Source: a virus. From it: 64,000 nt of DNA. Below are positions 38,083-53,229 of this stretch, piece by piece. The stretch spans positions 95,537 to 159,536 of the IMG/VR virus record IMGVR_UViG_3300031873_000001; one strand, given 5' to 3'. The notes beneath the pieces are model-generated. The model was given only the letters and a program-made list of their open reading frames with translations, was not told the DNA's origin and did no database searches. The translations under genes were made by a program, and so were the position numbers. Within the stretch, counting starts at the first letter, position 1. Every line of letters begins with the position of its first letter.

Positions 38083-39528
38083 ATGGAACAGTTGCTGACA
38101 GCCTGGAAAACTCCCGAAGCCCAGGCTTTGATGAGCAAGTGGCACCGTCTCACTCGCTCGATCAAGGAGCCGTACCGGAAGTTCTGCGTGTCCCGGCTCC
38201 TCGAGAACGAGATGGACCACTTGATCTACCTGGCTAACGCCGGGAGCACGACGACCGGAGATGCGGGCTACTACACGAAGCACGTGTTCCCGGTGGTTCG
38301 GAGGGTCTGGCCGTTCCTGATCTCCAACGAGATTGTGTCCGTCCAGCCCATGAATGCCCCCGTGGGCGCCGTGTCCTACTTCAAGGTCAAATACGGGACC
38401 GAGAAGGGCGCCACCACGAAGGGCACGGAGATGATCGCAAACTTCGACATGTATTACTCGTCGGAGACGATCAGCAACGAGGCAGTCGGGACGACCCCAG
38501 CCGGAGGCGGCGGGGACCTGACCTACTCCGCTTCGCTGGATTTCACCCCTGTGAAGAAGGCGACCGACGCCGGAGCCGCAGGGCCGATCATCACCGTCGT
38601 GACCAACGAGACGTCCCCCCGGACGATCCGCTACACCGACGCCAACGGGTCGGGCACCCTGGTCGGTGACGCAGTCGGAGCCTCGGGGTCGATCAATTAC
38701 ACCAACGGCGCCTTCGCCATGGTCATTCCGTCTTTGACCTCGCAGAAGGTGGGCGTGGTCACCGCGTTCTACGAATACAACAGCGAGCTCAACACGGCGG
38801 TCCCGGAAGTGGACGTGGCCGTGGAGATCGCCGAGGTTCGGGCGCGGAGCCGCAAGCTCAAGGCCGTCTGGTCCACGGAGTCCGCAGAAGACCTGCGGGC
38901 CCTGCACGGAATCGACGTGGAGTCGGAACTCGTGGCCGGGGTTTCCAGCCAGATCGGCTTGGAAGTCGACCGCGAGATCATCAACGACATCTACACCCAC
39001 GTCGATGCGGTCGTGAAGTATAACTGGGACCGCACCGTGCCGTCCGGCATCTCGGACATCGATCACATCCGGTCGATCCTAACCGTCTTGTCGACGGCGT
39101 CGAATGCGATCCACAAGCGGACGCTCCGTTCGCCCGCGAACTGGATCGTGACCTCGCCCGACGTGGCGGCCCTGTTCGACCAGTTCGCCACGCACCAGCT
39201 GTTCCGGCCAGCGGTCGGTTCCGTCCCGGAGACGGGCGTCCCAGTGACCCCGCCTCGGAGACCCGGGATCTACTTCGCCGGGACTCTGCAGTCCAAGTGG
39301 GCGGTCTACGTAGACCCCTACTTCACCTCGACCAAGGTTCTGCTGGGCCTGAAGGGGGATTACTGGATGGATGCGGGCTACGTTTACGCCCCGTATATCC
39401 CAATCCAGATGACCCCGACGTTCATGGACCCGACGGACTTCGGGTTGAAGAAGGGTCTCCGTACTCGGTATGCCACGAAGCTCATCTATACCGAGTACTA
39501 CGCCCTCGTCACAGTCCTCAACATGTAA
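38083..39528 (+). CDS. Major capsid protein, T4 gp23-like
   Basis: 481 residues, ribosome site aaggag before ATG. HK97-fold protein of the gp23 type: Y-T-K-H-V-F-P-V-V-R-R-V-W-P near residue 70, F-K-V-K-Y-G, a Gly/Thr/Ser-rich inserted segment (about 140-235), W-S-T-E-S-A-E-D-L-R and V-D-R-E-I-I-N-D-I near 270-305, and P-A-N-W-I-V-T-S-P. It starts MEQLLTAWKTPEA, sharing the M-x-x-L-L-x-A pattern of the small genes that follow. Hairpins lie downstream (39562-39619, 39644-39689). Confidence 0.93.
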   Translation: MEQLLTAWKTPEAQALMSKWHRLTRSIKEPYRKFCVSRLLENEMDHLIYLANAGSTTTGDAGYYTKHVFPVVRRVWPFLISNEIVSVQPMNAPVGAVSYFKVKYGTEKGATTKGTEMIANFDMYYSSETISNEAVGTTPAGGGGDLTYSASLDFTPVKKATDAGAAGPIITVVTNETSPRTIRYTDANGSGTLVGDAVGASGSINYTNGAFAMVIPSLTSQKVGVVTAFYEYNSELNTAVPEVDVAVEIAEVRARSRKLKAVWSTESAEDLRALHGIDVESELVAGVSSQIGLEVDREIINDIYTHVDAVVKYNWDRTVPSGISDIDHIRSILTVLSTASNAIHKRTLRSPANWIVTSPDVAALFDQFATHQLFRPAVGSVPETGVPVTPPRRPGIYFAGTLQSKWAVYVDPYFTSTKVLLGLKGDYWMDAGYVYAPYIPIQMTPTFMDPTDFGLKKGLRTRYATKLIYTEYYALVTVLNM

Positions 39529-39699: not shown

Positions 39700-40107
39700 A
39701 TGAGTAAGGTTCTGATGAATGCGATATCGGAGCTCGAGGGTTTTCTGAATGCCAGACCGCCCGTGCAGTCCCAGCGGGGATCGGGATTCGATCAGGAAAT
39801 GTCGGATAACGTCGCGAAGCTCGCCACAGAGATGGCGACTAAAATAGAAGCCGAGAAGGGCGACTTCTATACGATGCTTATGGAGGCGATCGGGGAGCGG
39901 TGGGAGGGAGCCATGAAGAAGGCCGGGCTTAGAGACGATGTCGATATCCTGGCGATCACAGAGAACATAGTCGATTGGCAGGCCGAGCATACTCAGGGAG
40001 GGATGGAGGCCGCACTCTATGGCGTCCTCGATCGGCTCATCTCGGCTTGCAAGGCTACCGCACAGAATCCCGTCTCGATGGCGAAGCGGGCGGGTGTCAC
40101 CTTATAA
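39700..40107 (+). CDS. N-terminally tagged hypothetical protein (135 aa)
   Basis: ATG 39700 after ggagggctc. N-terminus MSKVLMNAISELEGFLNAR fits the amphipathic tag pattern (M-x-x-L-[LM]-x-A-[IV]-x-x-[LV]) repeated in the genes that follow. The rest is helical. First gene of the array after the capsid gene. Confidence 0.75.
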   Translation: MSKVLMNAISELEGFLNARPPVQSQRGSGFDQEMSDNVAKLATEMATKIEAEKGDFYTMLMEAIGERWEGAMKKAGLRDDVDILAITENIVDWQAEHTQGGMEAALYGVLDRLISACKATAQNPVSMAKRAGVTL

Positions 40108-40116
40108 GGAGGCCAC

Positions 40117-40545
40117 ATGGACTATCTTTTGAACGTCATTAACTCCTGCCTTGAGTCCCTGGCTGGAGAGCCCAAGAGGGTCCGGCTCTCGAGCGCCACA
40201 AGCCTCAAGGACGTCTACGGGATGGGGCGGGGCGATCTCAAGCGCACGAAGGAGGTCTACGAGTGGCGCGACTCGAGATGGCTTTCCATCGATGACGCCG
40301 CTCGGGAGTTCGAACATGCGGGGATCGACTCATACAACGAGTTCACCCCGAACAGCATCCGAGCCCTGAAGCGGATCGAACCCAAGCTCGAGGTCCAGCT
40401 TGCTCGGGAGGGATCGCCGTGCGTTTACGTCCGTGGCGGGAAGAGACCCCTCGAGGAAATTGCCGAGATGATCGAAGACTCCCGGAAAGTCGGGGCCGAC
40501 GAGGTTAACGCCGAGAACAACGAGATCCGCCTCTGGTGGGACTGA
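40117..40545 (+). CDS. N-terminally tagged hypothetical protein (142 aa)
   Basis: Ribosome site aaggagg. MDYLLNVINSCLESLAGE carries the tag and a L-A-G-E end that resembles the L-C-G-E ends of three other array members. The body is mixed, with S-I-D-D-A-A-R-E-F and W-L-S segments suggesting a small helical domain. Unknown function. Confidence 0.75.
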   Translation: MDYLLNVINSCLESLAGEPKRVRLSSATSLKDVYGMGRGDLKRTKEVYEWRDSRWLSIDDAAREFEHAGIDSYNEFTPNSIRALKRIEPKLEVQLAREGSPCVYVRGGKRPLEEIAEMIEDSRKVGADEVNAENNEIRLWWD

Positions 40546-40811
40546 TGGACCTGCTTCTGGCCTCCGTTAATCGCATAGGAAGGGTTCTGATCAACCAGGA
40601 GATATCGCAGGCGATCGCCCAGCAGGTGCTTGAGGATATCGCCCCGGACTTCGACGTCGATCCGGAGCAGTTCCGGATGGGGCTTGCGGACGAGCTTGAA
40701 CACTACGACGTCACCGGCGGGGATCTCGTGACCACGGGGCATATCGCCCTGGCGCATCTCAAAGATCACCCCGACTACTACACCAGGCTCAAACAAGCGG
40801 GATTGGATTGA
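40545..40811 (+). CDS. DUF5661-like protein (88 aa)
   Basis: ATG 40545 (TGATG overlap). After a tag-like start (MDLLLASVNRIGRVLI), residues 38-85 read D-x-E-Q-F-R-M-G-L-A-D-E-L-E-H-Y-D-V-T-G-G-D, then I-A-L-A-H-L-K-D-H-P-D-Y-Y-T-R-L, the DUF5661 pattern (G-x-x-x-E-x-E-H...A-x-x-H-L-x-E-x-P-x-Y-Y). Its function is not known; it occurs in many phages near structural genes. Confidence 0.78.
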   Translation: MDLLLASVNRIGRVLINQEISQAIAQQVLEDIAPDFDVDPEQFRMGLADELEHYDVTGGDLVTTGHIALAHLKDHPDYYTRLKQAGLD

Positions 40812-41128
40812 ATTGTCTCCTCATATGCACACGGAGGGTTTACTCGGCGGTCGATCTGGTTCCGGCGAAGCAGGTTCACGCTGTGGCCTTCGAGATAGAC
40901 GGTCGGGTCTACCAGGGCAGGCCGGGGGAGACCCATGCTCGGCTGTTAGCCCGGTTACCCGCCAGCGTGGTGGATCGGTATTACGATCTGATGGAGGATC
41001 CCGATGAGGCGGGCTTCGTCGACGGGTTTATCATGAAGAACGGGGAGTTTCTTACTCGAGGGGATGTGATGATGCGAACAGGCAAGCCCGGGGAGTCCAC
41101 TACTCAGGGAGTGTCGCCACGCCGATGA
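40808..41128 (+). CDS. Hypothetical protein (106 aa)
   Basis: TTG 40808 overlaps the previous stop and has no clear ribosome site, so expression is probably coupled; the start is uncertain. The core V-H-A-V-A-F-E-I-D-G-R-V-Y-Q-G-R-P-G-E-T-H-A-R-L then Y-D-L-M looks like a small alpha/beta domain. MNCLLICTRRV is only loosely tag-like. Confidence 0.62.
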   Translation: MNCLLICTRRVYSAVDLVPAKQVHAVAFEIDGRVYQGRPGETHARLLARLPASVVDRYYDLMEDPDEAGFVDGFIMKNGEFLTRGDVMMRTGKPGESTTQGVSPRR

Positions 41129-41466
41129 GGGAGCTTCTATCTTCTCTTGTTCTGGTTGAAGGCTCTTTGATGGCCGTATGGAACCGTGAGGATCGTTATC
41201 CATTAGGTGCACTCGATGAACTTAGGGGTCGCGCTAACCTCATAGCTCACTTCGCTGATCATGTTTTGGAAGCCGTCAAGAAGGCCTCTGATCCAAACCC
41301 TAAGAGGCGCGAGATGGCCGGAGCGGATATGCTTGAGAGCATTAAGGACATACTTTCCCAGACCGGACAGGCTTTGGATGCCCTTGCTGAGATGGGACAG
41401 CTAATCGATCCCGAGAGGTTCAAGAAGGCATCCCGAGATATCTTTTCTTTGACGTTGAGGTTATAG
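41125..41466 (+). CDS. N-terminally tagged hypothetical protein (113 aa)
   Basis: 4-base overlap with the previous stop. MRELLSSLVLVEGSLMAVW has the tag pattern. AT-richer than its neighbours, all helical. No domain recognised. Confidence 0.72.
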   Translation: MRELLSSLVLVEGSLMAVWNREDRYPLGALDELRGRANLIAHFADHVLEAVKKASDPNPKRREMAGADMLESIKDILSQTGQALDALAEMGQLIDPERFKKASRDIFSLTLRL

Positions 41467-41467
41467 G

Positions 41468-41704
41468 GTGAACGAACTGCTTCGACTGATCGCACAGGTT
41501 GGACCTGAGCTCCGGTTCCAAGCCCGCACCGTGAAGCGTTCGGAGGATGAGCAGGATCGGAAGGTCGCCGGATATCCGAATGCCTCCCGGGTCCCGTCGA
41601 GAGTAGATTCCAAGAGCGAGCTTGAGGAAATTCTCGAGATGTTTCAGGAGCTCGGGAAGACTGGGGAGTTTCAATTCACATCCAGATATGGAGATTTGAC
41701 ATGA
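41468..41704 (+). CDS. N-terminally tagged small protein (78 aa)
   Basis: GTG 41468. MNELLRLIAQVGPELRFQAR carries the tag and a basic end; the rest is polar with a C-terminal helix and strand. Overlaps the next gene by 4 bases. Confidence 0.7.
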   Translation: MNELLRLIAQVGPELRFQARTVKRSEDEQDRKVAGYPNASRVPSRVDSKSELEEILEMFQELGKTGEFQFTSRYGDLT

Positions 41705-42087
41705 AAGAACTTATTCGGTTGGTCAATGCCGCCATGCCTTCCCTAGCGCCGATGTCCCCCGCCTCCCCGACGAAGGACGTGCCCGACGACGAGACCCGAA
41801 AGCGGATGGAGAAGCGGGACAATGAGAAGAAGGACGCCGTCCGGTCAGGGCGTCTTACCTCGTCCTTCACGTTCGCAAAACCGGAAAGGCATTATGATGT
41901 CGAAGCTCTCCGGGGAAATACGTCCGGCTACATCGGCGGGGCGAACGTAGCCCGGAAGGCCTCGGACGATGAGCTTATCCTGATCGCCCAGCTCAAGGAC
42001 GAGGCCGCAGGCTTCGCTAACCATGCGAAGGAGTTCTCGGATCGGGCCGAGTCGATCATGAAAGACATCGAAAGGAGGAAGGGATGA
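41701..42087 (+). CDS. N-terminally tagged hypothetical protein (128 aa)
   Basis: MKELIRLVNAAMPSLAPM is tag-like, followed by a Pro/Ser linker and a charged helical region. LIAQLKDEAAGFANHAKEFSDRA near the end resembles a coiled coil. Unknown. Confidence 0.72.
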   Translation: MKELIRLVNAAMPSLAPMSPASPTKDVPDDETRKRMEKRDNEKKDAVRSGRLTSSFTFAKPERHYDVEALRGNTSGYIGGANVARKASDDELILIAQLKDEAAGFANHAKEFSDRAESIMKDIERRKG

Positions 42088-42317
42088 GAAACCTTCTGTC
42101 TGCGGTTGAAGCCCTGCAGTCCAAGATGGACGAGGACGCTGATTTTTTAAGAAAGGCGCAGGACGCCTTTGACAATACCGAAGCGGCGGCGGGCGGGCTC
42201 ATTGGCCTTCAGGACCATTTCAAGAAGGATAGTAGCATAAAAAGGGAGCTTGAGAGGAACGTCGAAGAACTCGACCGGATCGCCAAGTTCGTTACCAAAA
42301 TCGCGGGGGTGAATTGA
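42084..42317 (+). CDS. N-terminally tagged small protein (77 aa)
   Basis: MRNLLSAVEALQSKMDED fits the tag; the whole protein is a charged helical bundle or coiled coil. 4-base overlap with the previous gene. Confidence 0.7.
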   Translation: MRNLLSAVEALQSKMDEDADFLRKAQDAFDNTEAAAGGLIGLQDHFKKDSSIKRELERNVEELDRIAKFVTKIAGVN

Positions 42318-42318
42318 G

Positions 42319-43197
42319 ATGAATAACCTGCTTCAAGCGGTCAAGGACGTAGCCTCCCAGGTGGGCCTGCAGTCTGCACGTGGTGGCGTAGACGATGACA
42401 CCGCCCGGAGGTGGACGCATTCCTTCTACGACCAGTTCGGGGGCATCACCTTCGTGGTGATGTATGATGAGAATCAATGGGTCAAGAAGGGGGATACTCT
42501 TACGGTCTCCACGGGCGGGGTCGTTCCGGAGGATATCACGGGTCCCAACAGCTACGTCTATCTCGAGCATGAACTTGGGGATGATGAGATGTGGGAACGG
42601 TATAAGATCACGATCCCCGATCAGGAGAAATACTTCGCCCACAAGACGGTTGGCAGGGATTCATGGCAACTTGAATTCATTGCCGAGAACCTCCGCAAAG
42701 AGAAGTATATCATCGACGACAAGAACCGCGACCGGATCAAGAGGGACTTCCTGCGGTTTGTGGAGGGGATCGAAGAGCAGGACGATGATGACTTGGAGGA
42801 CTCCCGGATCATGCGTGGTCGGAGGCTGAACTCGGCCCGGGGCGATATCTGGCTGGACTCCGACGATGAGGTGAAGGCTCTCGGGAACTACGCTGAGGGC
42901 TACGCCAAAGCCTTAACCGATCCGGATATGGTCGATGCCATCAAGGATGCCTACGACGATGCCGTAGGAAAGATTGCCGATGAGCTGATGCCCCCATCGA
43001 AGGGTGATATCGGATGGTCGGGTTTGGTCGACGTGTTCTACCATATCCTGAACCGTCAGACGGGAGGGGAGAACGGACAGCTCCGCAGGATCAAGGAGTT
43101 TCTTAAGGGCGAATTGGAGGACGCCAAGCAGATCGCCAAGAACCCGAGAAAGATGTTCGAAGAAGCGGGCGGGATTATCAAGCCGAGGGAGGGCTGA
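42319..43197 (+). CDS. N-terminally tagged hypothetical protein (292 aa)
   Basis: MNNLLQAVKDVASQVGLQSAR carries the tag. The body begins with strand-rich FGGITFVVMYDENQWVKKGD and continues with acidic helices; L-P-S-like protease sites are not obvious. One of the longest array members, with room for an enzymatic domain I do not recognise. Confidence 0.75.
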   Translation: MNNLLQAVKDVASQVGLQSARGGVDDDTARRWTHSFYDQFGGITFVVMYDENQWVKKGDTLTVSTGGVVPEDITGPNSYVYLEHELGDDEMWERYKITIPDQEKYFAHKTVGRDSWQLEFIAENLRKEKYIIDDKNRDRIKRDFLRFVEGIEEQDDDDLEDSRIMRGRRLNSARGDIWLDSDDEVKALGNYAEGYAKALTDPDMVDAIKDAYDDAVGKIADELMPPSKGDIGWSGLVDVFYHILNRQTGGENGQLRRIKEFLKGELEDAKQIAKNPRKMFEEAGGIIKPREG

Positions 43198-43514
43198 TGG
43201 ACAAGGAATTCAAAGAAGCCTTTGGACGGTTGGAGCAAATTCTGTTCCCTGGAATAGCCGCCCACGATCCGGTGTCTGCCGCAGTGGTTCCGGTCCAGAC
43301 CAAGCAGGTCGTCCAGTCTGCCGGAGAGCCCTTGTTCATGTGCCAGGAGTGCGGGAAGAAGTTCTACACGACAGCTTCTGCCGAGCGGGCGGCGAATGAC
43401 GGGTGCCCGAAGTGCGGGGGTGTGGATGTCGACACCTACGTTAAGAGCTCGGAAAGCGGGCCGATGAACGATCTGGTGACGTCTCTGCGGTCAATCGAAA
43501 GGAGCCTCAGATGA
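43197..43514 (+). CDS. Zinc-ribbon protein of the array (105 aa)
   Basis: MDKEFKEAFGRLEQIL is a looser version of the tag. Residues 46-76 hold C-Q-E-C-G-K-K-F and C-P-K-C-G-G, a zinc ribbon. Its stop is followed after 3 bases by overlap with the next start. Confidence 0.72.
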   Translation: MDKEFKEAFGRLEQILFPGIAAHDPVSAAVVPVQTKQVVQSAGEPLFMCQECGKKFYTTASAERAANDGCPKCGGVDVDTYVKSSESGPMNDLVTSLRSIERSLR

Positions 43515-43774
43515 GAACCTTACTAGAAGCTATGCAGGCCGTCGAGACGGGACTGGTCTCCGCCCGGTCAACGGATACGTTGCGGGGAGACTTCGCCGCC
43601 CGGGCCGAGAAGTGCAGGGACCTCCTCGTCCAGATCGACAAGCTTCTCAACCAACTCGAGAAGATCGATCCCTACGGCGACATGATCGAGAACTTCGCCG
43701 ACGAGGACAAGCACACCCGGATCACGTCGAGGCTGATCGGTCAGATCAACGGGGACTTGGGGAGGAAGGTGTGA
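43511..43774 (+). CDS. N-terminally tagged small protein (87 aa)
   Basis: MRTLLEAMQAVETGLVSAR is a near-ideal tag and is closely similar to the next gene's start and to the gene at 48540. The remainder is helical with regular Leu/Ile spacing. Confidence 0.74.
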   Translation: MRTLLEAMQAVETGLVSARSTDTLRGDFAARAEKCRDLLVQIDKLLNQLEKIDPYGDMIENFADEDKHTRITSRLIGQINGDLGRKV

Positions 43775-44124
43775 GAGCCCTTCTGGAAGCTACACAGGGC
43801 ATCGATCGTGGTCTGGTGGTCTCCGCCCGGGGTGACGATCATTCCATCCCGGAGATCCAGAGGGAGCTGGCAACCTTTACTGAGGAGGCTCGTCGGTTCA
43901 AGGATTGGATGATGGAGGGCTACTTCAGCGAGATACTCTTCAAAGATATCGGGGGAGACGCCGCTCCGGAGGTTGCGGGAATCCTGTGGTGGGCGTGGGA
44001 CAACGATCCCCTGGCAAAGAAGGTCTTGGCGGATATCGAAAGCCTCGGGCGGAACATGGAGGCCATGTGGAATCAGTTCTCGAAGAAGGCCGAGTATTAC
44101 CAGAAAAAGGCGTTATCCCGATAG
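43771..44124 (+). CDS. N-terminally tagged hypothetical protein (117 aa)
   Basis: GTG 43771 (4-base overlap). MRALLEATQGIDRGLVVSAR parallels the gene before in 10 of the first 19 residues, while the bodies are unrelated. ILWWAWDNDPLAKKVLADIE is a distinctive helical region. Unknown. Confidence 0.74.
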   Translation: MRALLEATQGIDRGLVVSARGDDHSIPEIQRELATFTEEARRFKDWMMEGYFSEILFKDIGGDAAPEVAGILWWAWDNDPLAKKVLADIESLGRNMEAMWNQFSKKAEYYQKKALSR

Positions 44125-44131
44125 GAGGATC

Positions 44132-45085
44132 ATGAATACCCTTTTGGAATCCTTAGATTCGCTCCGCAAGGTTCTCGTCCTCTCGAGGTTTGAGGACGAC
44201 TTGGAGCCCGACGAGGAAGATGTCTTCATCCAGGACGAGCGGGGTGGCGGAACTGCGGCCTATCAGAGTCAGAAGGAAATCGCTACCTTAGACGGGGATG
44301 ACTGGGACAAGTTCTACAAGGAAATCCTGGGCTGGATGAATAAGAACAAGTTCTGGCCGAGCGTCTGGATGGTGAGCGATCACGGGAACGAGGCCATTGA
44401 CACCGACTTCATCACCTACTCGAGGAAGCACGGGGGGATGAGGGCCGCCGGGGTCGAAGGTATCTACTCGAAGGTGGGTCCCACCGGCGATCTCGAGAGC
44501 CCATCCTACCGGGAGGTCGACCACGAGTTCATGCGGATCGAAACCATGAGCATCCCAGCTCTCAGGACCCGCATCACGAAGATCGGGAAGCCGGAGAAGA
44601 TGTATGCCTTTATCTACGCCCTCGAGAAGCAGGTCGACATCTACGGGGTGAACAGCGATCAGGGGAAGGATTACAAAGAGCTGGCGGACTCGGCCCGGAA
44701 CTACCTGAAGATCTGGGGCTACGACAAGCGGGGCCGGGTCATGGCCGAGAAGCTTACCAACGCCGGGGAGGACCCGACGGCTACCCACAAGGAAGAGCTC
44801 TACACCCTCGCCGGGCTGATGACGGGGGCCGTTAAGCCCGGCGATCTCCGGCAGGATATCCTCTCTGTGATCAAGGAGAAGGTGTGGCCGGAGATCGATG
44901 AGAAGGCCCGGATGATCAACAAGAGTAACCCGAAGGATTTGGCCCGGATAGCCGGAGACGCATTCGAAGAGACGATGGGGGGAAGGACGTCGGCTTCCGG
45001 GGAGCTCGGCAACGCCCTTCGGTCCATCCAGGATGCCGTCGATGAAGTGTGGCATGCTCTCGCAAGAGAATGGGGGAAGAAGTGA
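44132..45085 (+). CDS. N-terminally tagged hypothetical protein (317 aa)
   Basis: ATG 44132 after aggagg. MNTLLESLDSLRKVLVLSR is the tag; then an acidic stretch and a long helical/mixed body with WPSVWMVSDHGNEAIDTDFI and KMYAFIYALEKQVDIYGV. Largest member besides the intein gene. No catalytic motif recognised. Confidence 0.75.
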   Translation: MNTLLESLDSLRKVLVLSRFEDDLEPDEEDVFIQDERGGGTAAYQSQKEIATLDGDDWDKFYKEILGWMNKNKFWPSVWMVSDHGNEAIDTDFITYSRKHGGMRAAGVEGIYSKVGPTGDLESPSYREVDHEFMRIETMSIPALRTRITKIGKPEKMYAFIYALEKQVDIYGVNSDQGKDYKELADSARNYLKIWGYDKRGRVMAEKLTNAGEDPTATHKEELYTLAGLMTGAVKPGDLRQDILSVIKEKVWPEIDEKARMINKSNPKDLARIAGDAFEETMGGRTSASGELGNALRSIQDAVDEVWHALAREWGKK

Positions 45086-45435
45086 TGGACAATCTCAAGC
45101 AAGCGGTGGACTGGCTGGGTGTCCTATGTGGGGAGGACGACGGGACGGAGATCGGGGATAGGCTGATGGCCGCCCGCGACCCCGATGCGATTTTCATGTC
45201 AGACGATGACATGGATAAGCTCAAGGAGACGATGAGGTGGGGGAAAGCCGCCGAGCAGTTCCTGAACGAGCTGGCCGGGAACGTGGAGTATGCCATCAAG
45301 CAGTTCGATCCCAAGTATACCCAGGAGATCAAGAAGGTCGTGCAGTCTCTCCGCACGGCCGCTGGTGCCGCTAGCGAGATGTATTTCGAAGCGAAGAAGT
45401 CACAGGAGAACCTCGAGAACCGGGACTGGGCTTAG
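45085..45435 (+). CDS. N-terminally tagged hypothetical protein (116 aa)
   Basis: ATG 45085 shares a base with the previous stop. MDNLKQAVDWLGVLCGE ends in L-C-G-E, a subgroup shared with the genes at 45942 and 48096 and suggestive of a common processing point. The rest is charged and helical. Confidence 0.73.
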   Translation: MDNLKQAVDWLGVLCGEDDGTEIGDRLMAARDPDAIFMSDDDMDKLKETMRWGKAAEQFLNELAGNVEYAIKQFDPKYTQEIKKVVQSLRTAAGAASEMYFEAKKSQENLENRDWA

Positions 45436-45436
45436 G

Positions 45437-45940
45437 ATGACCATGAGAAGCCAAGTAATCAAAGCCCTGCAGGAGCTCGAGGCCGCGGTGAAGCCCTCGG
45501 ACGATTTAGTAAATTGGGTCGCCGCCATCCTGGTCAACGATGAGGCGTCCTCGGATTCCGAGATGGCAGACCATTTCAAGAAAGAAGGGAAGGTCTCCAA
45601 TGAGATAGCCTGGGACTTTGTTCGGCTCCGGCAGAAGGCTCTGAAGGGCCGAGATGTCACTTCCGAGATTGCACAGATCCTCGAGAGGAGGGGTTGGCCG
45701 ATGGGGAGCTCTCGGGAGGGGAAGCCGTTGGAGAGTGGTCTTAGGAACACGAAGGTTCTCATGAAGACCCTGATGGACGATCGGGGCAAGCCGAACCTGC
45801 AGTATGTGGAGGAGACCCTTTCGGATGGATCGAAGGCCTATAATATCATCGTCGGGGCTTTTGAATATGCCGCCAAAGACCGGGACGATGCGGATGCGGT
45901 CTACGAGGCGATCTACACCGCCGTGGGCGAGAAAGGATAG
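45437..45940 (+). CDS. Array protein, looser tag (167 aa)
   Basis: ATG 45437 or 45443. MRSQVIKALQELEAAVK is amphipathic and may be a diverged tag. The body includes SEIAQILERRGWPMG and a C-terminal helical part. No domain recognised. Confidence 0.7.
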   Translation: MTMRSQVIKALQELEAAVKPSDDLVNWVAAILVNDEASSDSEMADHFKKEGKVSNEIAWDFVRLRQKALKGRDVTSEIAQILERRGWPMGSSREGKPLESGLRNTKVLMKTLMDDRGKPNLQYVEETLSDGSKAYNIIVGAFEYAAKDRDDADAVYEAIYTAVGEKG

Positions 45941-45941
45941 C

Positions 45942-46313
45942 ATGAGCCAAGAGAATAAAGCCGTTTTAATCCTTGCCGAGTTGTGCGGGGAACCGATCTT
46001 GTCCACAGGGACCAGGGTCTTGGGCTACAAAGGCGTGGATCCCGCTGTCCTTCAGAAGACTGCCCTTCAGGTGGCGAACGGGGGAGTCTTGGGCGACCCC
46101 GAGAAGCTGTCCGAGTACGTGCTGAAGTTCATCAAGGATGCGGTCGGGCATTCCGGAGATTCCAAAGTCGTTGCACAGGTCGTGGACGTGCTCTTTCAGT
46201 ACCTGCGGGACAATTCCGACATCCAGAAGGGCATGGGATTGATTACGGATAAATTGCAGGAGGTCGTCCGTGATCTCGCAGAGGAAGATCCCTTTGGCTT
46301 AAGGGAGCCGTGA
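45942..46313 (+). CDS. N-terminally tagged hypothetical protein (123 aa)
   Basis: MSQENKAVLILAELCGE is of the L-C-G-E subgroup. The rest is helical: VLQKTALQVANGGVLGD, then VVAQVVDVLFQYL. Overlaps the next GTG by 4 bases. Confidence 0.72.
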   Translation: MSQENKAVLILAELCGEPILSTGTRVLGYKGVDPAVLQKTALQVANGGVLGDPEKLSEYVLKFIKDAVGHSGDSKVVAQVVDVLFQYLRDNSDIQKGMGLITDKLQEVVRDLAEEDPFGLREP

Positions 46314-46939
46314 GGGACTTGCTCGAAGCTGTGAATACCTTAACCAGCGGGATCTTCCTGGGGCTCTATCTCGATCCCAACCGGGAGAAGGATTTTCAGG
46401 ACCTCGAGCTGTCCACGCAGTTCATGATGATGGAGCTCTTCCGCAGAGATCGGGTCTACGGGGATTACGATCGTAACGTGAAGCCGGACTTCCGGAGCCG
46501 CCTGTCGGATTACGGGATCCAATGTGAGGATGTCCTCTGGGTGAGCCCGAAGATGAGCTGGAAGGATCCCGAGGGAGACAGCCCGGACTACTACTTCAGG
46601 CCCGATCGCCTCGTGCTCAAAAACGCAGTGGTCAAGGACGTCAGGCTCTTTCTCAAGGAGGCCGGGGCAGACCCGAACGATCCAGAGGTCCAGAAAGCAC
46701 TGAACGATCGTCGTTCTCCCGTGAGCATCGCCTTCTCGACCCGGGGCTACTCCTGCGTCCCTCCGTCGCTCGGCGGGGCTAACCTGACGGAGTTCATCCA
46801 GGGGATCGTGGAAGAGATGCTCGGGACCCTGCAGGACGAGTACGGGGATATGATTGCCAACAACGATGTGGCCGACATTCTGGTGGACGGGGATACCTGG
46901 AAAGAATACGCCCGGCAGGTTGGGCTGAAGGCCGCGTAG
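46310..46939 (+). CDS. N-terminally tagged hypothetical protein (209 aa)
   Basis: GTG 46310. MRDLLEAVNTLTSGIFLG is an almost ideal tag. The body is mixed alpha/beta with FMMMELFRRDRVYGDYDR and SPVSIAFSTRGYSCVPP. No match recognised. Confidence 0.74.
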   Translation: MRDLLEAVNTLTSGIFLGLYLDPNREKDFQDLELSTQFMMMELFRRDRVYGDYDRNVKPDFRSRLSDYGIQCEDVLWVSPKMSWKDPEGDSPDYYFRPDRLVLKNAVVKDVRLFLKEAGADPNDPEVQKALNDRRSPVSIAFSTRGYSCVPPSLGGANLTEFIQGIVEEMLGTLQDEYGDMIANNDVADILVDGDTWKEYARQVGLKAA

Positions 46940-46948
46940 GAGGATATC

Positions 46949-48094
46949 ATGAAGGAATTATTGACTGCCGTCGTCGATCTCTCGCAGAGCTTCAAGCTCG
47001 TGAACGTGTCTCCCCCCGGCTGGGGCGGGACCGTCCGGGCGATGAAGAAGCACAAGGACATCGACAACCCCTTCGCTTTGTGTCTAGGAGGTGATACGGA
47101 GGTTCCATGTTTGGACGGAAAAATCAGGTCACTGCATGCACTTGCAGAGGCTAATGCCGAGTTCTGGCTTTACTCCGTTGACCCGACAGGGATAGTCGTT
47201 CCCGGTCTTGCCCGGGTAAAGTATGTCGGGGTGCGTCCTGCCGTGGAAATTGCGCTTGATAACGGTGAGATTCTAACCTGTTCTCCGGAGCACCGCTGGG
47301 TCAAACGTGATGGGTCTTTCGTCGAAACGAAGGCTCTGAACGTAGATGATTCTCTGATGCCATTCAGGACGACAAGCAGTGTGTCAAAATCAAGAATGGC
47401 TCGTGGAATTGTGGGGCATGAGATGGTTTACCATCCCGGCCTCGGGTGCTATGGCCTTACGCATTGGGCTGTAATGCGGGAGATGGGTTTAGGCTGTCCC
47501 TCCGCCGAGCATGTCGGGCACCATCTCAATGAAGACCCTCGAGATAACCGCCCTGAAAACTTAGTTTGGATGTTGCGGGATTTCCATAATAAGCATCATG
47601 GAAAGGACAAGGTTCAGGCGATGCGGTTAGCGTGGGATAAAAAGTGGAGATCGGACCCGGAATTCAGAAGGTTGCATACGAAAAAGTCCAAAGAGACTAC
47701 GTTGAAGCAATGGGCCGAAATGTCTCCCGAAGAGCGAGAACGTCGGTCGGGACTTCTCAGGGATCAGTCTTACAGGAGTGGTTTGCTTGGCGGTCGTCCG
47801 TTCGGAACTTCTCAGTCTGCGGATGCGATAGAGAAGATTAGGCAGGCAAATCTTCGGAGAAACTATGGTTCGGATCATGGGAAAAAGGTCGGCGAAGGAA
47901 AGCGAAGGGCCCGGGAAGCTCGAGAGGCTCAGAACCACTTTATAGTTAAGATCGATTTTCTCGATACCATCATTCCGATGTATGATGTCGCTGTTAAGGG
48001 AATTCATACGTTCGCCATATCCGCAGGGGTTTTCTCGCATAACTCCTACTGGATGAAAAGCCGGGGCGACAAACCGCACCACAAGGAGGACTGA
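46949..48094 (+). CDS. N-terminally tagged small protein interrupted by an intein
   Basis: 381 residues as translated. Residues 1-44 and 366-381 are the host protein: a tag (MKELLTAVVDLSQSFKLV) followed by W-G-G-T-V-R-A-M-K-K-H-K-D-I-D-N-P-F-A-L, joined after splicing to S-Y-W-M-K-S-R-G-D-K-P-H-H-K. That second part resembles a short 'K-K-H-x-x-I-x-N-P-x-A-L-x-x-x-M-K' motif I associate with phage structural proteins. Residues 45-365 are the intein. The mature product would be about 60 residues, so the intein is five times longer than its host. Confidence 0.85.
   Translation: MKELLTAVVDLSQSFKLVNVSPPGWGGTVRAMKKHKDIDNPFALCLGGDTEVPCLDGKIRSLHALAEANAEFWLYSVDPTGIVVPGLARVKYVGVRPAVEIALDNGEILTCSPEHRWVKRDGSFVETKALNVDDSLMPFRTTSSVSKSRMARGIVGHEMVYHPGLGCYGLTHWAVMREMGLGCPSAEHVGHHLNEDPRDNRPENLVWMLRDFHNKHHGKDKVQAMRLAWDKKWRSDPEFRRLHTKKSKETTLKQWAEMSPEERERRSGLLRDQSYRSGLLGGRPFGTSQSADAIEKIRQANLRRNYGSDHGKKVGEGKRRAREAREAQNHFIVKIDFLDTIIPMYDVAVKGIHTFAISAGVFSHNSYWMKSRGDKPHHKED
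47081..48043 (+). mobile_element. Intein with HNH homing endonuclease domain
   Basis: Block A C-L-G-G-D-T-E-V-P-C begins at Cys45. Block B is L-T-C-S-P-E-H-R-W with the conserved His. An HNH_3-type endonuclease core (V-G-H-H-L-N-E-D-P-R-D-N-R-P-E-N-L) sits in the middle. Blocks F/G are V-K-G-I-H-T-F-A-I and V-F-S-H-N with the terminal Asn365 and +1 Ser. All splicing residues are present, so it should be active. The base composition is more AT-rich than the flanking exteins. Confidence 0.9.
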
Positions 48095-48095
48095 C

Positions 48096-48536
48096 ATGAA
48101 AAAGGAAACTCGAGCCGTTCAGCTTCTGGCTTCGATGTGCGGGGAGGAGCTCTTTGACGCTCGGGAGAGGTCGATCTGGGACGTCAAGAACAAGCTCTCC
48201 ACGAAGGAGTTCCTGCGGGCTGGCCGTTACATCTCGGGAGGGTTCGGCTTCTGGGGTCACTCGGCCCTCGCCACGAACCCAGAGCTCGCCGATGCGTGGA
48301 TCGAAGCCCTCCGGCAGAAGGGTTACTCTGACCTGGCGATCGTCCTCTTTGGAGACTTCAGAGACGCCAGGCACATCGGTGACATGCTGGAAGACGAGAA
48401 CATGACCAAAGAGCAGGCCATCCAGATCATCAAGAAGCAGGCGATCAACCCGAAGGAAGTTCGCCGGATCTCGGAGGAAGAGGGAGCCTATACGAACGCC
48501 CTCGAGGATCCCGAGTTCACGAAGTTCTTCATGTAG
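48096..48536 (+). CDS. N-terminally tagged hypothetical protein (146 aa)
   Basis: MKKETRAVQLLASMCGE is of the C-G-E subgroup. Downstream G-F-G-F-W-G-H-S and acidic helices with QAIQIIKKQAINPKEV. Unknown. Confidence 0.73.
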   Translation: MKKETRAVQLLASMCGEELFDARERSIWDVKNKLSTKEFLRAGRYISGGFGFWGHSALATNPELADAWIEALRQKGYSDLAIVLFGDFRDARHIGDMLEDENMTKEQAIQIIKKQAINPKEVRRISEEEGAYTNALEDPEFTKFFM

Positions 48537-48539
48537 ACC

Positions 48540-48947
48540 ATGAGAACCCTGCTTGAAGCGATTCGGTCCCTTGCTGGGCTCCTAAGCGTCCGCACAACGG
48601 ACGACCTCGGGGAGTCCCCATTTTACGCCCGGCTGAAGGATACGCCACAGCGGGACAAGAAGCTGGCGACCGAGCTCATGAAGATCGACGATGACATCTG
48701 GCGGAGCAAGGGTTGGGACGACGCCTCGGGGCCCTGGGGGGACTGGGACGGTTATAAGGAGAACGTAGAGGTCGCCGTTAGGAGGCTCGGGGTTAAGCCT
48801 AGCTCCCTTTCGGAGCGGGTGTGGGAGATCCTCGAGAACGAGAACTACCATTCGATCAACGGGGCCCTCGATGACCTCGCGATGTATAAGGTCAAGCACT
48901 ACACCGACGCTCAGATCAAGAAGCTGTTTCGGAGCAAATCCCAATGA
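48540..48947 (+). CDS. N-terminally tagged hypothetical protein (135 aa)
   Basis: MRTLLEAIRSLAGLLSVRTT is very close to the starts at 43511 and 43771. The body has DDASGPWGDWDGYKENVEV and a helical C-terminus. No match recognised. Confidence 0.74.
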   Translation: MRTLLEAIRSLAGLLSVRTTDDLGESPFYARLKDTPQRDKKLATELMKIDDDIWRSKGWDDASGPWGDWDGYKENVEVAVRRLGVKPSSLSERVWEILENENYHSINGALDDLAMYKVKHYTDAQIKKLFRSKSQ

Positions 48948-48956
48948 GAGGGTGCT

Positions 48957-49232
48957 ATGGACATGACACCGGAGGAAGCAAGGGTCGTTCAGAAGGTCGA
49001 GCACTACCTTCGGGGAATAGACTTTCACAACATCGTGGGGATGCTTTCGGGAGGCATTTCCAACGATCTCAGGTTCGCCGGGGTTGATCAGAAGGTGAGC
49101 GTGAAATTATCCCATCGGTTGGTAGCACTTATAGACGTGCAGTACCTGGAAGGGACTCGGCAGAAGCTCCATGATCTGGCGAATAACCAGTCCCTGCTTC
49201 TGGACCTCGTTCGGGCCTCAATGATGGCATAG
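48957..49232 (+). CDS. Hypothetical protein (91 aa)
   Basis: ATG 48957. No tag at the N-terminus (MDMTPEEARVVQKVEHYL), so it marks the end of the contiguous array. Helical. Unknown. Confidence 0.68.
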   Translation: MDMTPEEARVVQKVEHYLRGIDFHNIVGMLSGGISNDLRFAGVDQKVSVKLSHRLVALIDVQYLEGTRQKLHDLANNQSLLLDLVRASMMA

Positions 49233-49240
49233 GAGGATTG

Positions 49241-49903
49241 ATGAGATACTGGAAGAAGAATCCGAAATACGGCCAGATATCCTGCGGGGGAAATATGTTC
49301 AGCTCCGGCTCGGTCATCGAAGGCGACCACTGGGCGATCTATGCGATCCCTCCGGATGACCGTTTGATAGAATGCGACGCCTCCGGCAATCCCTTGTCGG
49401 CACCTCCACCTCCTGTGCAACAGGTTCCGGCATCCGACGAGCCGGTTCCTGGACCTGTCGAAGGGATAGGCTCCTCTGGGGCGTCGCCTATACCTCAGCC
49501 TGCGCCTCCGGTAACTCCGGCTCCCGCCATGTCGCCTGCGTCCGAACCTCCGCAGGAAGTCGTTTTAGGGGTCGGGGATGGCCTACAGTCAGCGATGACC
49601 GAGGCCGTGGAAACGCCACTCCACACGCATGCTCCGGAGGCGCCGAAGGCTGAGGGGGGAAAGCCCCCAAAGGAGGGGAAGGCCGGGACGGAGGGGTCGG
49701 AGGCCGGGTCGGGGGCCAAAGCCCCACCAGAAGCCCCTGGTGAAGCCCAGGGGGGTAAGAAAGAGGCTCCCAAGCCTCCCAAACCCGGTCCAAAGGCGGG
49801 TTCCCCGTCCAAGCCGGAGAAACCCGGGTCGAAGCCCGTCCAGGTAGCGGCCAAAAAGGACACCCCAACCAAGAAGGGCGGGCGGGGTACGGCGTATGTT
49901 TAA
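49241..49903 (+). CDS. Low-complexity Pro/Ala/Lys-rich protein (220 aa)
   Basis: ATG 49241 after aggagg. Residues 1-50 form a small folded head (YWKKNPKYGQISCGGNMFSS); residues 55-220 are disordered: Pro/Ser/Ala, then a Lys/Pro/Gly-rich segment with repeated K-P-x-K-P-G units. The basic tail could bind DNA or the capsid wall. No family recognised. Confidence 0.65.
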   Translation: MRYWKKNPKYGQISCGGNMFSSGSVIEGDHWAIYAIPPDDRLIECDASGNPLSAPPPPVQQVPASDEPVPGPVEGIGSSGASPIPQPAPPVTPAPAMSPASEPPQEVVLGVGDGLQSAMTEAVETPLHTHAPEAPKAEGGKPPKEGKAGTEGSEAGSGAKAPPEAPGEAQGGKKEAPKPPKPGPKAGSPSKPEKPGSKPVQVAAKKDTPTKKGGRGTAYV

Positions 49904-49908
49904 CCTCC

Positions 49909-49920
49909 GCTGGCGCCAGC
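49909..49920 (+). repeat. 12-bp palindrome with the TGGCGCCAGCA core
   Basis: GCTGGCGCCAGC lies in the 21-base gap between two genes; the following AG extends the shared core TGGCGCCAGCA seen also at 23999-24009 and 60559-60569. Confidence 0.55.
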
Positions 49921-49924
49921 AGAG

Positions 49925-50638
49925 ATGACCGAGGCCGAGCTCAAGCAGGAAGTATTCGCCAAGCTCGGGTTCGGGACGAAGGTCGCCGTCGAGCTCGAGG
50001 AGGAACACTGGCAGGCGGCTTTGAGGGATGCCCTGCGGTGGTTCAACACGAGGCTGGGATCGGAGGTTCTGGCTCTGGAAATCCCGGTTGGGAACTGGGC
50101 GTATGAAGAACATGTCCTGCCGAGCGGGACGATCGGGGTGAGCAACGTCTATGCGGGTTTGGATTACCTCGGTCAGTTCTCGTTTGATCTCCCGGGATTC
50201 GTTCTCTGGCAGGTCGGGCACGACTACCGGAGGTTGGGGCATCGGTTTTCCGCTCTCGTTCTCTACCTTCAGCACTCGGAGACGCTCGGGCGGATCGCCG
50301 GAGGCACCGGATGGGAGTATGACCCCGGGACCAGGATTCTGCGGACCTGGAAGCTCCCACAGACGATCGGCACGTTGTTTTACGACGCCTGGATTCTGGC
50401 GACGAAGATTGAGGACATTCAAGCGGCCGCAGATATCGATCTCTACGCTCGGAGGGTGACAGCGCGATGTAAGCAGATACTCGGAAGGATCAGGGGGAAG
50501 TATAAGCAGTACCCTGGGCCAGGCGGTCCAGTCGAGATGGACGCCGACAGGTTGTTGGAAGAATCCTCTGAAGAACTCAAGGAGACCGAAGAGGATAGCC
50601 TGAGTAGGGCTTCACAAATCCCGTTTTTAACGGGGTAG
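49925..50638 (+). CDS. Probable neck/connector protein (237 aa)
   Basis: MTEAELKQEVFAKLGF, then H-W-Q-A-A-L-R-D-A-L-R-W-F-N-T-R, is the type of helical start seen in head-completion proteins that contact the portal; the C-terminal part has K-Y-K-Q-Y-P-G-P-G-G-P-V-E-M-D-A-D, a conserved-looking segment in myophage neck or baseplate proteins. Assignment is by context and feel only. Confidence 0.55.
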   Translation: MTEAELKQEVFAKLGFGTKVAVELEEEHWQAALRDALRWFNTRLGSEVLALEIPVGNWAYEEHVLPSGTIGVSNVYAGLDYLGQFSFDLPGFVLWQVGHDYRRLGHRFSALVLYLQHSETLGRIAGGTGWEYDPGTRILRTWKLPQTIGTLFYDAWILATKIEDIQAAADIDLYARRVTARCKQILGRIRGKYKQYPGPGGPVEMDADRLLEESSEELKETEEDSLSRASQIPFLTG

Positions 50639-50662
50639 TCACTTAACCAAAAGGAGGATGAA

Positions 50663-51007
50663 ATGACGTTCACAGTAGTGCAGGGTCAGATCGGTGGCAA
50701 ATACGCCCCAGGCGGAGCCTACCAGGCCGTCCACGTGGGGCAGGAGACGCTGGACTTCCGTCTCGGCGATCTCGTTCCGGCTGTCAAGCAGTACCTGGCT
50801 CCGGACACCACGGTTGCCGTGGCGAACATGGCCGCTCTCGTGGTGGCGATCGACGCCACCGTGACGGGCGCCCTCAAGACGTACCTGGACGCCGTCATCG
50901 CGGCTCAGGGTGATATCGCGACGGTGGGGCTCGATGCCTACGCCGGTACGATGTCCTTCGTGATCGCCATCCTGGTCATGACGGGCTTCTACCTTACGAT
51001 CACCTAA
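50663..51007 (+). CDS. Hypothetical protein with C-terminal TM segment (114 aa)
   Basis: aaggagg ribosome site. Ala/Val/Thr-rich, with a hydrophobic C-terminal helix (FVIAILVMTGFYLTIT). Could be a small structural or decoration protein, or membrane-linked. No match recognised. Confidence 0.68.
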   Translation: MTFTVVQGQIGGKYAPGGAYQAVHVGQETLDFRLGDLVPAVKQYLAPDTTVAVANMAALVVAIDATVTGALKTYLDAVIAAQGDIATVGLDAYAGTMSFVIAILVMTGFYLTIT

Positions 51008-51034
51008 ACAGTTTTGGGGCGGGGGGTCTTCTTC

Positions 51035-51547
51035 ATGGGTTCCATTGCTCCAGCTCTCACCTCCCTTCGAGAGCTCCTAGAAACCCCGGCCAAGCTCCCC
51101 GCCCCTGCTGTTCGGTTTGTCGACAAGGCAGATGAAGCAGGACACACGCCCGCAGATGATGATCTACAAGGGATCGGTTTCACGGTTCGGTTTCGTAGAG
51201 GGGGAGGAGGATTAGGGTTGGACAATCTCAGGAAGATCGTGGACGACACGCTCGGGGTTCTGGACACGATCAAACAGCGTCCCCACGCCATGAGGGTGAC
51301 GGATGATGAGAAGCTCGAGAACCTCGTGACGAGGGATGCCTTTGGGAATCGCCTTCGTGGTCAGGATGAGTATATGGTTCGGCTGATCGGGCGGGGCCTG
51401 TGGCTTACCCCGAAGGGGCCGGGTAACTATACGGAGGATCCCGAGGACGCCGTTATCATGACTGGCTTTGAGGCCGAGCGGTTCATTCGGGGGAATTCCA
51501 ACCTGGAAGCGATCTCCTACGAATCCTACGAGAAGCGGGGGAAATGA
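51035..51547 (+). CDS. Hypothetical protein (170 aa)
   Basis: ATG 51035 preferred to TTG 51014. MGSIAPALTSLRELLETPAKL is a tag-like amphipathic start. A Gly-rich loop (RRGGGGLGLD) and a helical/strand body follow. Unknown. Confidence 0.68.
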   Translation: MGSIAPALTSLRELLETPAKLPAPAVRFVDKADEAGHTPADDDLQGIGFTVRFRRGGGGLGLDNLRKIVDDTLGVLDTIKQRPHAMRVTDDEKLENLVTRDAFGNRLRGQDEYMVRLIGRGLWLTPKGPGNYTEDPEDAVIMTGFEAERFIRGNSNLEAISYESYEKRGK

Positions 51548-52138
51548 GTGGATCCCGAAGGGCTCACTCTTCACGAAGTCGGGTCGGACAGCAAGGGCTG
51601 GTTCGTCGTCCTGCAGGACAAAGACGGCGGGCTCACTCAATACTGGTTTCCCAGCCAGCGGTTCACTAAGAGCTTTCTCGATGATTTCCGGTTCGACAAG
51701 GCAAAGGGAATTGAGACCCTCAAGAAACGGGCGAGCGGGCAGAAGGAAGTCGGGGATCACCTCAAGACCGAGGATTCGTTCAGCGTCCGTTTGATCGAGC
51801 CCGACTCGGGCGATCCGTTCTTTGAAGTTCAGCGGGCAGACAAGAAGCGATACCGCTACTACGTTCCGAAGAAGGATATGTTGGAGATCGCCCGGGAGCT
51901 CTCCGATGAGACCTCCACGGAGCAGTTCAATCGGGTCCTCGGGATGCTGAACGATGTCGCCTATCTCGTGCAGGTTGAGAAGGCTCAAGGGACGGGGGAG
52001 TGGGAGACCATCCGGCAGGATAAGGAGCAGTCTTACGATGACCCCGTTCACCTGAAGCCGATCGACAGCCCTTACTTCACTGTGGGGATTGACAGCCACC
52101 TCGAGCACATCCTGGAACTGCTTTCACATGGCCGATAG
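51548..52138 (+). CDS. Hypothetical protein (196 aa)
   Basis: GTG 51548, directly after the previous stop. Beta-rich first half (KGWFVVLQDKDGGLTQYWF), helical second half. Overlaps the next start by 11 bases. No family recognised. Confidence 0.7.
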   Translation: MDPEGLTLHEVGSDSKGWFVVLQDKDGGLTQYWFPSQRFTKSFLDDFRFDKAKGIETLKKRASGQKEVGDHLKTEDSFSVRLIEPDSGDPFFEVQRADKKRYRYYVPKKDMLEIARELSDETSTEQFNRVLGMLNDVAYLVQVEKAQGTGEWETIRQDKEQSYDDPVHLKPIDSPYFTVGIDSHLEHILELLSHGR

Positions 52139-52610
52139 ATTCTTTGAAAATCCACGTGACCGGAGGATGTTCGACGGCGTCGCCCAGGAGGTTCCCGCCC
52201 TCAGCGGGTTCCACATCTCTTTCTATTCGATCAATCGGGCGGCCTCGATTCAGGACCCGCTGTATCAGGAGCCCACGACGGAGTCCGACTTCGTCTTTGC
52301 CGGACCCTACGACATCATCGGTAATCTCGAAGTGCCGACGTGGTCGTGGGAGGAGAACGAGGTTGGAGGGATCGGGGAGATCGATGCTCTCGCCCACCTG
52401 CCCCGGAAGAGCATTGAGGACAACAGCTGGCCTCTTCCGAAGCGGGGAGACATCCTGTTGGTTTGGAATACGCCACAGCCTTTATTTACGAAGTATGATA
52501 TTGTGAAGGTCACGCCGACGGAGTTCTACTGGGGGACGGGTGACCACATGTTCTGGACTTGTGAACTTAAACGGCATGCCGATGCGCCAGGGGAGCAGAA
52601 AATACCATGA
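52128..52610 (+). CDS. Probable neck or tail-completion protein (160 aa)
   Basis: Beta-rich, with Trp/Pro motifs (VPTWSWEENEVGG, WPLPKRGDILLVWNT, FTKYDIVKVTPTEFYWGT). Position between connector-like genes and the sheath, and size, fit a head-tail joining protein, but no firm match. Confidence 0.55.
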   Translation: MADRFFENPRDRRMFDGVAQEVPALSGFHISFYSINRAASIQDPLYQEPTTESDFVFAGPYDIIGNLEVPTWSWEENEVGGIGEIDALAHLPRKSIEDNSWPLPKRGDILLVWNTPQPLFTKYDIVKVTPTEFYWGTGDHMFWTCELKRHADAPGEQKIP

Positions 52611-52927
52611 GCCTAAAAGTCTTGTTGAGTGAAGTGCAGGCGTTGACGTCTGCGGTCGTCTCGGGAGAGAAGACCCATCTCCGGCAGTGGAAGCGGGTCC
52701 CTTACCGGAAGGTCGCGGTGCAGTCAGGAAGGGTTGTGTCCCCGTTCAGCAGGGACGCCCGCAGGGCTACCCGGAGGGTCGTGAAGTCCGACCTCGGCCT
52801 CACCATGCGCTCGAGGTCCCGCAAGGAGAAGGAGTCTCGGCTTCACCGGAAGGCCGTGAAGTCCGGGATCACCCTGGCCGGACAGGTGAAGGGCCTCATG
52901 GACATTTTCAACGAGGTGACCAAATGA
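52607..52927 (+). CDS. N-terminally tagged basic protein (106 aa)
   Basis: MSLKVLLSEVQALTSAVVSGE is tag-like and ends in S-G-E. The rest is strongly basic (RRATRRVVKSD, RSRSRKEKESRLHRK), suited to binding DNA inside the head. An outlier member of the tagged group, outside the main array. Confidence 0.7.
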   Translation: MSLKVLLSEVQALTSAVVSGEKTHLRQWKRVPYRKVAVQSGRVVSPFSRDARRATRRVVKSDLGLTMRSRSRKEKESRLHRKAVKSGITLAGQVKGLMDIFNEVTK

Positions 52928-53229
52928 ACGACCTGCTTAAGTCGGTCGCATTGACAGAGGAGACCTTGAAGTCCGCCCTCTCTCCTGGGGAAGCCGGGCT
53001 CCGGAGTGGGGATCCCGAGAAGCAACAGGCCGAGATTGCAGAGAACGTCTCGAAGCTCGTTGGGGTCGTCGGGGAGATGAAGAAGCTCGCCAACGATCTC
53101 TATAACGAACAGGTGAAGGGAGATGGGGATACCAAGCGGATCGGGCGGCTCGCAAATAATTTCAAAGACGCCGTCCGGAGAGCCAGCGTTATGATCATCT
53201 CCCTTACCGATATCACCGATCAGTGGTAG
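52924..53229 (+). CDS. N-terminally tagged small protein (101 aa)
   Basis: ATG 52924 (4-base overlap). MNDLLKSVALTEETLKSAL is tag-like. Body helical with a heptad-like pattern (VSKLVGVVGEMKKLANDL). Unknown. Confidence 0.7.
   Translation: MNDLLKSVALTEETLKSALSPGEAGLRSGDPEKQQAEIAENVSKLVGVVGEMKKLANDLYNEQVKGDGDTKRIGRLANNFKDAVRRASVMIISLTDITDQW

Follow-up and report, generated by a model that had tools for sequence, protein, structure and literature searches.

Three internal proteins (IPs) of phage T4, Ip1-3, have only an N-terminal leader in common and differ in the Type IV restriction enzyme that each of them blocks; they are encoded at two loci, and at least ten such proteins are found over the T-even group (PMC12373910). 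The leader, i.e., the capsid-targeting sequence (CTS), packages foreign proteins by itself, with residues 4 and 7 responsible for targeting, and the T4 protease gp21 cuts after L/I-x-E (PMC9026906). In phage P1, the first 30 residues of DarB suffice for capsid targeting (PMC9024508), and in SPN3US two paralogues are identical over their first 15 residues (PMC5694885). Here, a 64,000-nucleotide stretch (henceforth the window, bases 95,537-159,536) of the 159.5-kb virus record IMGVR_UViG_3300031873_000001 (genome G000), from an uncultured T4-like phage, was analysed, which carries an array of 19 genes sharing one short N-terminal peptide. We read this N-terminus, at a probability of about 0.7, as a capsid-targeting leader of the T4 CTS kind but with a lineage-specific sequence, borne by an unusually large set of packaged and probably co-injected proteins.

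Genes were called in this analysis over the whole 159.5-kb genome, and the N-termini of the 19 genes named in a first-pass annotation of the window were compared with those of the 213 other genes by means of a leave-one-out profile covering residues 2-20. The window profile was trained without the sister genome G001 (about 91% identical; 160 kb, 244 called genes, capsid protein 91% identical). All 19 proposed starts were present in open frames on the + strand, and the GTG starts at 41468, 43771, and 46310 were accepted because the leader itself and its conservation support them. Coordinates are window positions unless marked as sister or L-locus. The array members are as follows, each supported by the profile except where another basis is given:

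39700..40107, +, leader protein MSKVLMNAISELEGFLNAR, leader shifted +1 (98% in the sister)
40117..40545, +, leader protein MDYLLNVINSCLESLAGE
40545..40811, +, leader protein MDLLLASVNRIGRVL
41125..41466, +, leader protein MRELLSSLVLVEGSL (without counterpart in the sister genome)
41468..41704, +, leader protein (GTG) MNELLRLIAQVGPELRFQAR
41701..42087, +, leader protein MKELIRLVNAAMPSLAP
42084..42317, +, leader protein MRNLLSAVEALQSKM
42319..43197, +, leader protein MNNLLQAVKDVASQVGLQSAR, 292 aa (poor fold prediction)
43511..43774, +, leader protein MRTLLEAMQAVETGLVSAR
43771..44124, +, leader protein (GTG) MRALLEATQGIDRGLVVSAR (39% identity in the sister, leader kept)
44132..45085, +, leader protein MNTLLESLDSLRKVLVLSR, 317 aa (no phage homologue)
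45085..45435, +, leader protein, CGE subtype, MDNLKQAVDWLGVLCGE
45942..46313, +, leader protein, CGE subtype, MSQENKAVLILAELCGE
46310..46939, +, leader protein (GTG) MRDLLEAVNTLTSGIF
46949..48094, +, leader protein MKELLTAVVDLSQSF on small domain PPGWGGTVRAMKKHKDIDNPFAL/SYWMKSRGDKPHHKED, intein-split (PF14890, PF13392)
48096..48536, +, leader protein, CGE subtype, MKKETRAVQLLASMCGE
48540..48947, +, leader protein MRTLLEAIRSLAGLLSVR
52607..52927, +, leader protein MSLKVLLSEVQALTSAVVSGE, leader shifted +2, body very basic (pI 11.6; shifted profile)
52924..53229, +, leader protein MNDLLKSVALTEETLKSALSPGE

Over the first ~16 residues, the 19 genes follow the consensus M-[RKND]-x-L-L-x-[AS]-[VIL]-x-x-[LVI]-x-x-x-L. 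The start ^M..L[LI] was found in 14 of them and in 5 of the 213 other genes of the genome (Fisher p = 1e-14), and the genome-wide profile check bore out the shared start, as 15/19 members scored above every one of the 213 others when left out of training. Genes 40117 and 45942 were outscored by 3 other genes, and 39700 and 52607 failed at fixed register but matched once the leader was shifted by +1 and +2, respectively. Leu4 was present in 19/19 sequences of one profile set (15 from the window and 4 from the sister). A subtype ending in [LM]CGE comprises 45085, 45942, and 48096; these LCGE/MCGE residues, as well as the SAR/NAR residues of other leaders, were present as first described. The genes 40808, 43197, 45443, and 48957 lie inside the array span and fit the profile weakly or not at all, and therefore the array does not take in every gene of its span. 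Among these, 43197-43514 encodes a zinc-ribbon protein (PF09723, below cut-off) with a weakly leader-like start. The start of the major capsid protein, MEQLLTAW (MEQFLTAW in the sister), had been proposed as similar; it matches only partly, ranking seventh among non-array genes with a shift allowed, and hence the capsid protein was not counted as an array member. The hydrophobic moment over residues 2-17 averaged 0.42 in the leaders vs 0.25 in other genes, the hydrophobic positions of the amphipathic helix being 4, 5, 8, 11, and 15.

Searching a related genome had been suggested as a check, and the profile trained on the window retrieved 19/244 genes of G001 above 0.5, all of them at 35-58 kb, i.e., in the head region. 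Leader genes are thus restricted to the head region in both genomes; in the sister they lie also beside the portal gene, and one further sister gene, 35201, shows the start pattern of the leaders at a low profile score. In the window, the head region is ordered as follows, with the array between the capsid and adaptor genes:

33030..34676, +, portal protein (phrog_213, E 2e-62; LLEN close to the C-terminus)
34844..35713, +, unassigned head-region protein, head-core-like (gene call; LLEN at residue 29)
35741..36463, +, conserved head-core-like protein (RLSTLEEDL motif)
36498..38021, +, prohead protease, S77, T4 gp21-like (PF03420, E 1.3e-16; phrog_207, E 1e-42)
38083..39528, +, major capsid protein, T4 gp23-like (phrog_138, E 2e-67)
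49925, head-tail adaptor (phrog_211)
55579, tail sheath

The gp21-like protease that had been placed just upstream of the array is thus backed by both PF03420 and phrog_207, and the phage encodes an S77/gp21-type protease together with a gp23-type capsid protein. The C-terminal half of the protease gene product is probably a fused scaffold. The RLSTLEEDL motif of 35741 also adjoins the capsid gene in locus L080, with a similar one in L016. The capsid protein of L080 is the closest other one overall (49% identity), the closest named ones being those of a 595-kb uncultured phage (33%) and Bacillus phage SP-15 (32%); a search of bacterial genomes with the capsid protein gave no match. Directly upstream of the portal gene lies a nucleoside 2-deoxyribosyltransferase-like gene (31583-32026, PF15891), which is kept in the sister genome.

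Leaders around related capsid genes were surveyed in 1002 genes, taken from those IMG/VR capsid-alignment loci (of 80) that exceed 5 kb and from SP-15, LIS04, and GXN1. A slightly loosened T4-type pattern, M-K-[ST]-[FY]-x-[EQD]-[FYW]-[LIV], starts 34 of these genes, spread over 22 loci, where internal segments of the same proteins would lead one to expect 0.4; in the T4 record, IPII and IPIII start MKTYQEFIAEA and IPI MKTFKEFTS. The T4-like head locus L033:2746-18833 has eight T4-type leader genes (MKTFNEFIEQ, MKSFQEYLKDN, MKTFQEYLLEN etc.) on both strands around the capsid gene. In Streptococcus phage vB_SagM-GXN1 (L012; PQ819873.1 98803-144650), MRL[IV][KR]L or a similar start is present on about five to nine genes without annotation and is a candidate third leader type. 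SP-15 and LIS04 have few genes and no array between capsid and sheath, and no array was found at the capsid locus of L080. The window leaders are without the F/Y-x-E-F/Y/W pattern of the MKTYQEFIAE-type CTS, and their own type was found only in this lineage, with 4/1002 genes elsewhere above threshold, apparently by chance. In the wider group, we infer, cargo genes with a leader are commonly present near the capsid gene, and the leader sequence varies by lineage, presumably so as to fit the scaffold of the phage in question.

Regarding maturation, the called G000 proteome as a whole contains the motif L-[LI]-E-N three times, in the portal protein, 34844, and the capsid protein, all head genes, and LLEN is kept in 3/4 other capsid proteins aligned. 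Judged from this distribution, it is a good candidate for the maturation site of head proteins, the candidate site of the capsid protein being between RLLE and NE at residue 41. In the leaders, [SCAP]GE was found within residues 14-26 in 7/25 cases, compared with 0/202 body stretches and 1/195 other genes, although this pattern was chosen post hoc. When 20 end residues were scanned without prior selection, small-small-R (9/25) and small-small-E (7/25) ranked first; the R and E endings each reached p of about 0.003-0.004 vs other genes uncorrected, neither surviving strict correction for 20 residues, and several array members carry neither. Cleavage near residue 17-21, at CGE or SAR, is suggestive only, and the leaders show no common site. 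The known proteases of the gp21/S77 family cleave behind Glu and not behind Arg. For a subset of leaders, trimming after Gly-Glu is plausible, and trimming after Ala-Arg would be new for this protease family. LLE at leader residues 4-6 was rejected as a general cleavage site, as L-L-E is present in 5/19 leaders only.

The capsid-targeting reading is preferred because of the profile statistics and their transfer to the sister, where 19/19 matches fall in the head region; because the same leader stands on different, unrelated bodies and is selected as a peptide (see below); because an S77 protease, gp23-like capsid protein, and portal are encoded alongside, with T4-type leaders near related capsids; and because of the published behaviour of the T4 leader together with the raised amphipathicity of the leaders here. 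We infer from this a course of scaffold binding, packaging, cleavage, ejection, and anti-defence action. In brief, the amphipathic helix of the leader would bind the prohead scaffold (the C-terminal half of 36498 and/or 35741), by which some 19 unrelated small proteins would be built into the prohead; head maturation, and possibly trimming of the leaders, would be due to the S77 protease; DNA would be packaged around the released leader proteins; and these would leave with the DNA at infection, their action in the host being directed most likely at early defences. Several points weigh against such targeting. There is no uniform cleavage site, L-[LI]-E-N being absent from the leaders; on the window profile, the T4 IPs outscore no more than about 95% of unrelated genes; no body gave an anti-defence match; most bodies are acidic, whereas the T4 IPs are described as basic (PMC9026906); and the lineage is known from two genomes and one fragment only.

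Leader-packaged proteins might instead serve inside the head, as core or scaffold accessories or in DNA condensation or internal pressure, without being effectors. Some T4 internal proteins do aid head assembly, IPIII mutants assembling heads at about half the rate (PMC9026906), and many bodies of the array are short and acidic. The array genes are moreover under purifying selection (dN/dS 0.27), and therefore real and kept, while evolving somewhat faster than the other head and tail genes (0.18). The portal, protease, core, and capsid genes are without exception retained in the sister at 86-93% identity, whereas the bodies turn over between the two genomes: at least four G001 leader genes (35445, 45381, 52266, and 53734, sister coordinates) are without window counterpart, and window gene 41125 has none in G001. 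Furthermore, the start M[KN][KR]ETRAVQLLSx[LM]CGE stands on two different bodies in the sister (L003:19350 and 19649), the first of which is also a different body from that of 48096, whose type of start it carries. From one start on different bodies and the gain and loss of genes between sisters it follows that the leader is stable while the cargo changes, and a purely structural role is considered unlikely.

Tandem duplication of one small helical protein, with the bodies diverging and the N-terminal helix staying as an ordinary functional part, would account for the contiguity of the array and the similar size of many members, and 43511/43771 resemble a duplicated start. These two, however, have only their N-terminal 22 residues in common, and theirs was the only similarity in pairwise BLASTP, in agreement with the first-pass view that the bodies are unrelated. 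Comparison of 153 body pairs with hhalign gave no convincing match (best probability 31% over 11 columns), sizes range from 60 to 317 aa, and one body (46949) is a domain that recurs in 49 viral loci, in most of which this leader is absent. At positions where two leaders have the same residue, they also used the same codon in 29.6% of 533 comparisons vs 29.8% expected from genome codon usage. As this equals chance, the leader is kept as a protein, with selection acting on the peptide and not on copied DNA, and recent copying of 5' ends or a conserved nucleic-acid signal is unlikely; descent from a single protein is accordingly held to be improbable. That the leader directs its proteins elsewhere than into the head (to the host membrane, a chaperone, or tail assembly) is very improbable, since, although amphipathic N-terminal helices are able to bind membranes or chaperones and 52607 and 52924 sit among neck and tail genes, the leader genes cluster between capsid and adaptor, in the sister also beside the portal, and T4-type targeting leaders are present in the corresponding neighbourhood of related phages.

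No usable annotation of the bodies came from PADLOC, NCBIfam, PHROGs, or Pfam, the sole family match being the intein-split domain of 46949. Searches of named phages with 44132 and 42319, and of IMG/VR with 44132 and 39700, found no homologue outside this lineage. AlphaFold2 models of 42319 and 44132 from two-sequence alignments were set aside (mean pLDDT 43 and 51) except for a helix at residues 2-14, itself of low confidence. A common C-terminal motif, NPxxM...AG, was looked for and present in 3 members only.

The protein of gene 46949 belongs to the 60-aa class and is split by an intein that contains an HNH domain (PF14890, E 3.5e-9, above cut-off; PF13392, E 3.5e-6). The intein has Cys1 in a CLGGDTE start and a C-terminal HN followed by S; the sister homologue is 60 aa long and intein-free. 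The intein sits in the most conserved part of the body motif. This motif, GW-GTVKAMKKHKDIDNP-ALAW-MKNKG, was found in the 49 viral loci (L104-L152) mostly behind other N-termini, and in a few it is accompanied by a T4-type leader-like segment, either N-terminal (MKTLKQYIEEA, MKSFWEFREE) or near the C-terminus (TFSEWL, TFKQFL). As far as sequences can tell, 46949 shows one body travelling with different starts. In the same loci, the module PPG[WF]EGTVKAMKKHKDIDNPxALAWxMKNKGYKSHKK recurs on very different phage proteins and has no Pfam family match. Elsewhere in the window, a response-regulator receiver domain (60181-60558, PF00072, E 1e-20) is encoded beside a T4 baseplate gene, which is unusual within a phage structural region, and a radical SAM protein (5368-6420, PF04055, E 6e-18) is encoded with a glycosyltransferase gene (7664) nearby.

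If the capsid-targeting reading is true, the array ranks among the largest payloads of this kind known from sequence, and provides one more leader type for the delivery of proteins by phage heads. Phage-injected proteins are hard to find because they are without a common domain; a leader profile that holds on unseen genomes allows the head locus to be read, the local leader to be learned, and its cargo to be listed. About 19 candidate injected proteins per genome without known relatives would form a pool for new anti-defence or host-takeover functions. A more far-reaching proposal, to which we give a little less than an even chance, is that each phage lineage has in its head leader an address code of its own, fitted to the scaffold of the phage, with 19-24 mostly orphan effectors per head here, a payload far above that of T4, and with possibly different processing of the two leader endings, G-E and A-R.

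Compared with known systems, one leader on unrelated injected proteins is already the principle of the T4 internal proteins. The window shares with T4 IPI, IPII, IPIII, and Alt a short N-terminal leader on unrelated bodies, and with the T4 CTS system an S77/gp21 protease, a gp23-like capsid protein, variable gene content, and hydrophobic residues 4 and 8. It differs in leader sequence (M-x-x-L-L-x-A-V vs M-K-T-Y-Q-E-F-I-A-E), in the absence of a clear L/I-x-E cleavage site, and in having about 19 members mostly contiguous in the head region of one genome, whereas T4 has three IPs at two separate loci. Loci L033, L040, L053, and L056 resemble the window in having several genes with one leader and differing bodies near the protease and capsid genes, but use the T4 leader and reach at most eight per ~20-kb locus. 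GXN1 likewise has a set with a common start, mostly in the head-tail region, and a related capsid protein, but another leader, a smaller set, and L/I-x-E in many starts. The P1 Dar proteins, which are packaged anti-restriction proteins, resemble the window candidates in having an N-terminal signal; unlike those of the candidates, Dar N-termini are without consensus (PMC9024508). DarA, DarB, Hdf, DdrA, DdrB, and Ulx gave no match in Pfam, PHROGs, and NCBIfam scans of most members, run without dedicated profiles. The large packaged protein sets of phiKZ and SPN3US also bear N-terminal propeptides, but these mostly exceed 100 residues and are cleaved at A-x-E, with no shared leader reported there over some 19 proteins. 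A literature search, scant in subscription papers, returned no report of such a ~19-member one-genome array under a different leader. What is new here is a set of about 19 leader proteins in one region of one genome, under a leader different from that of T4.

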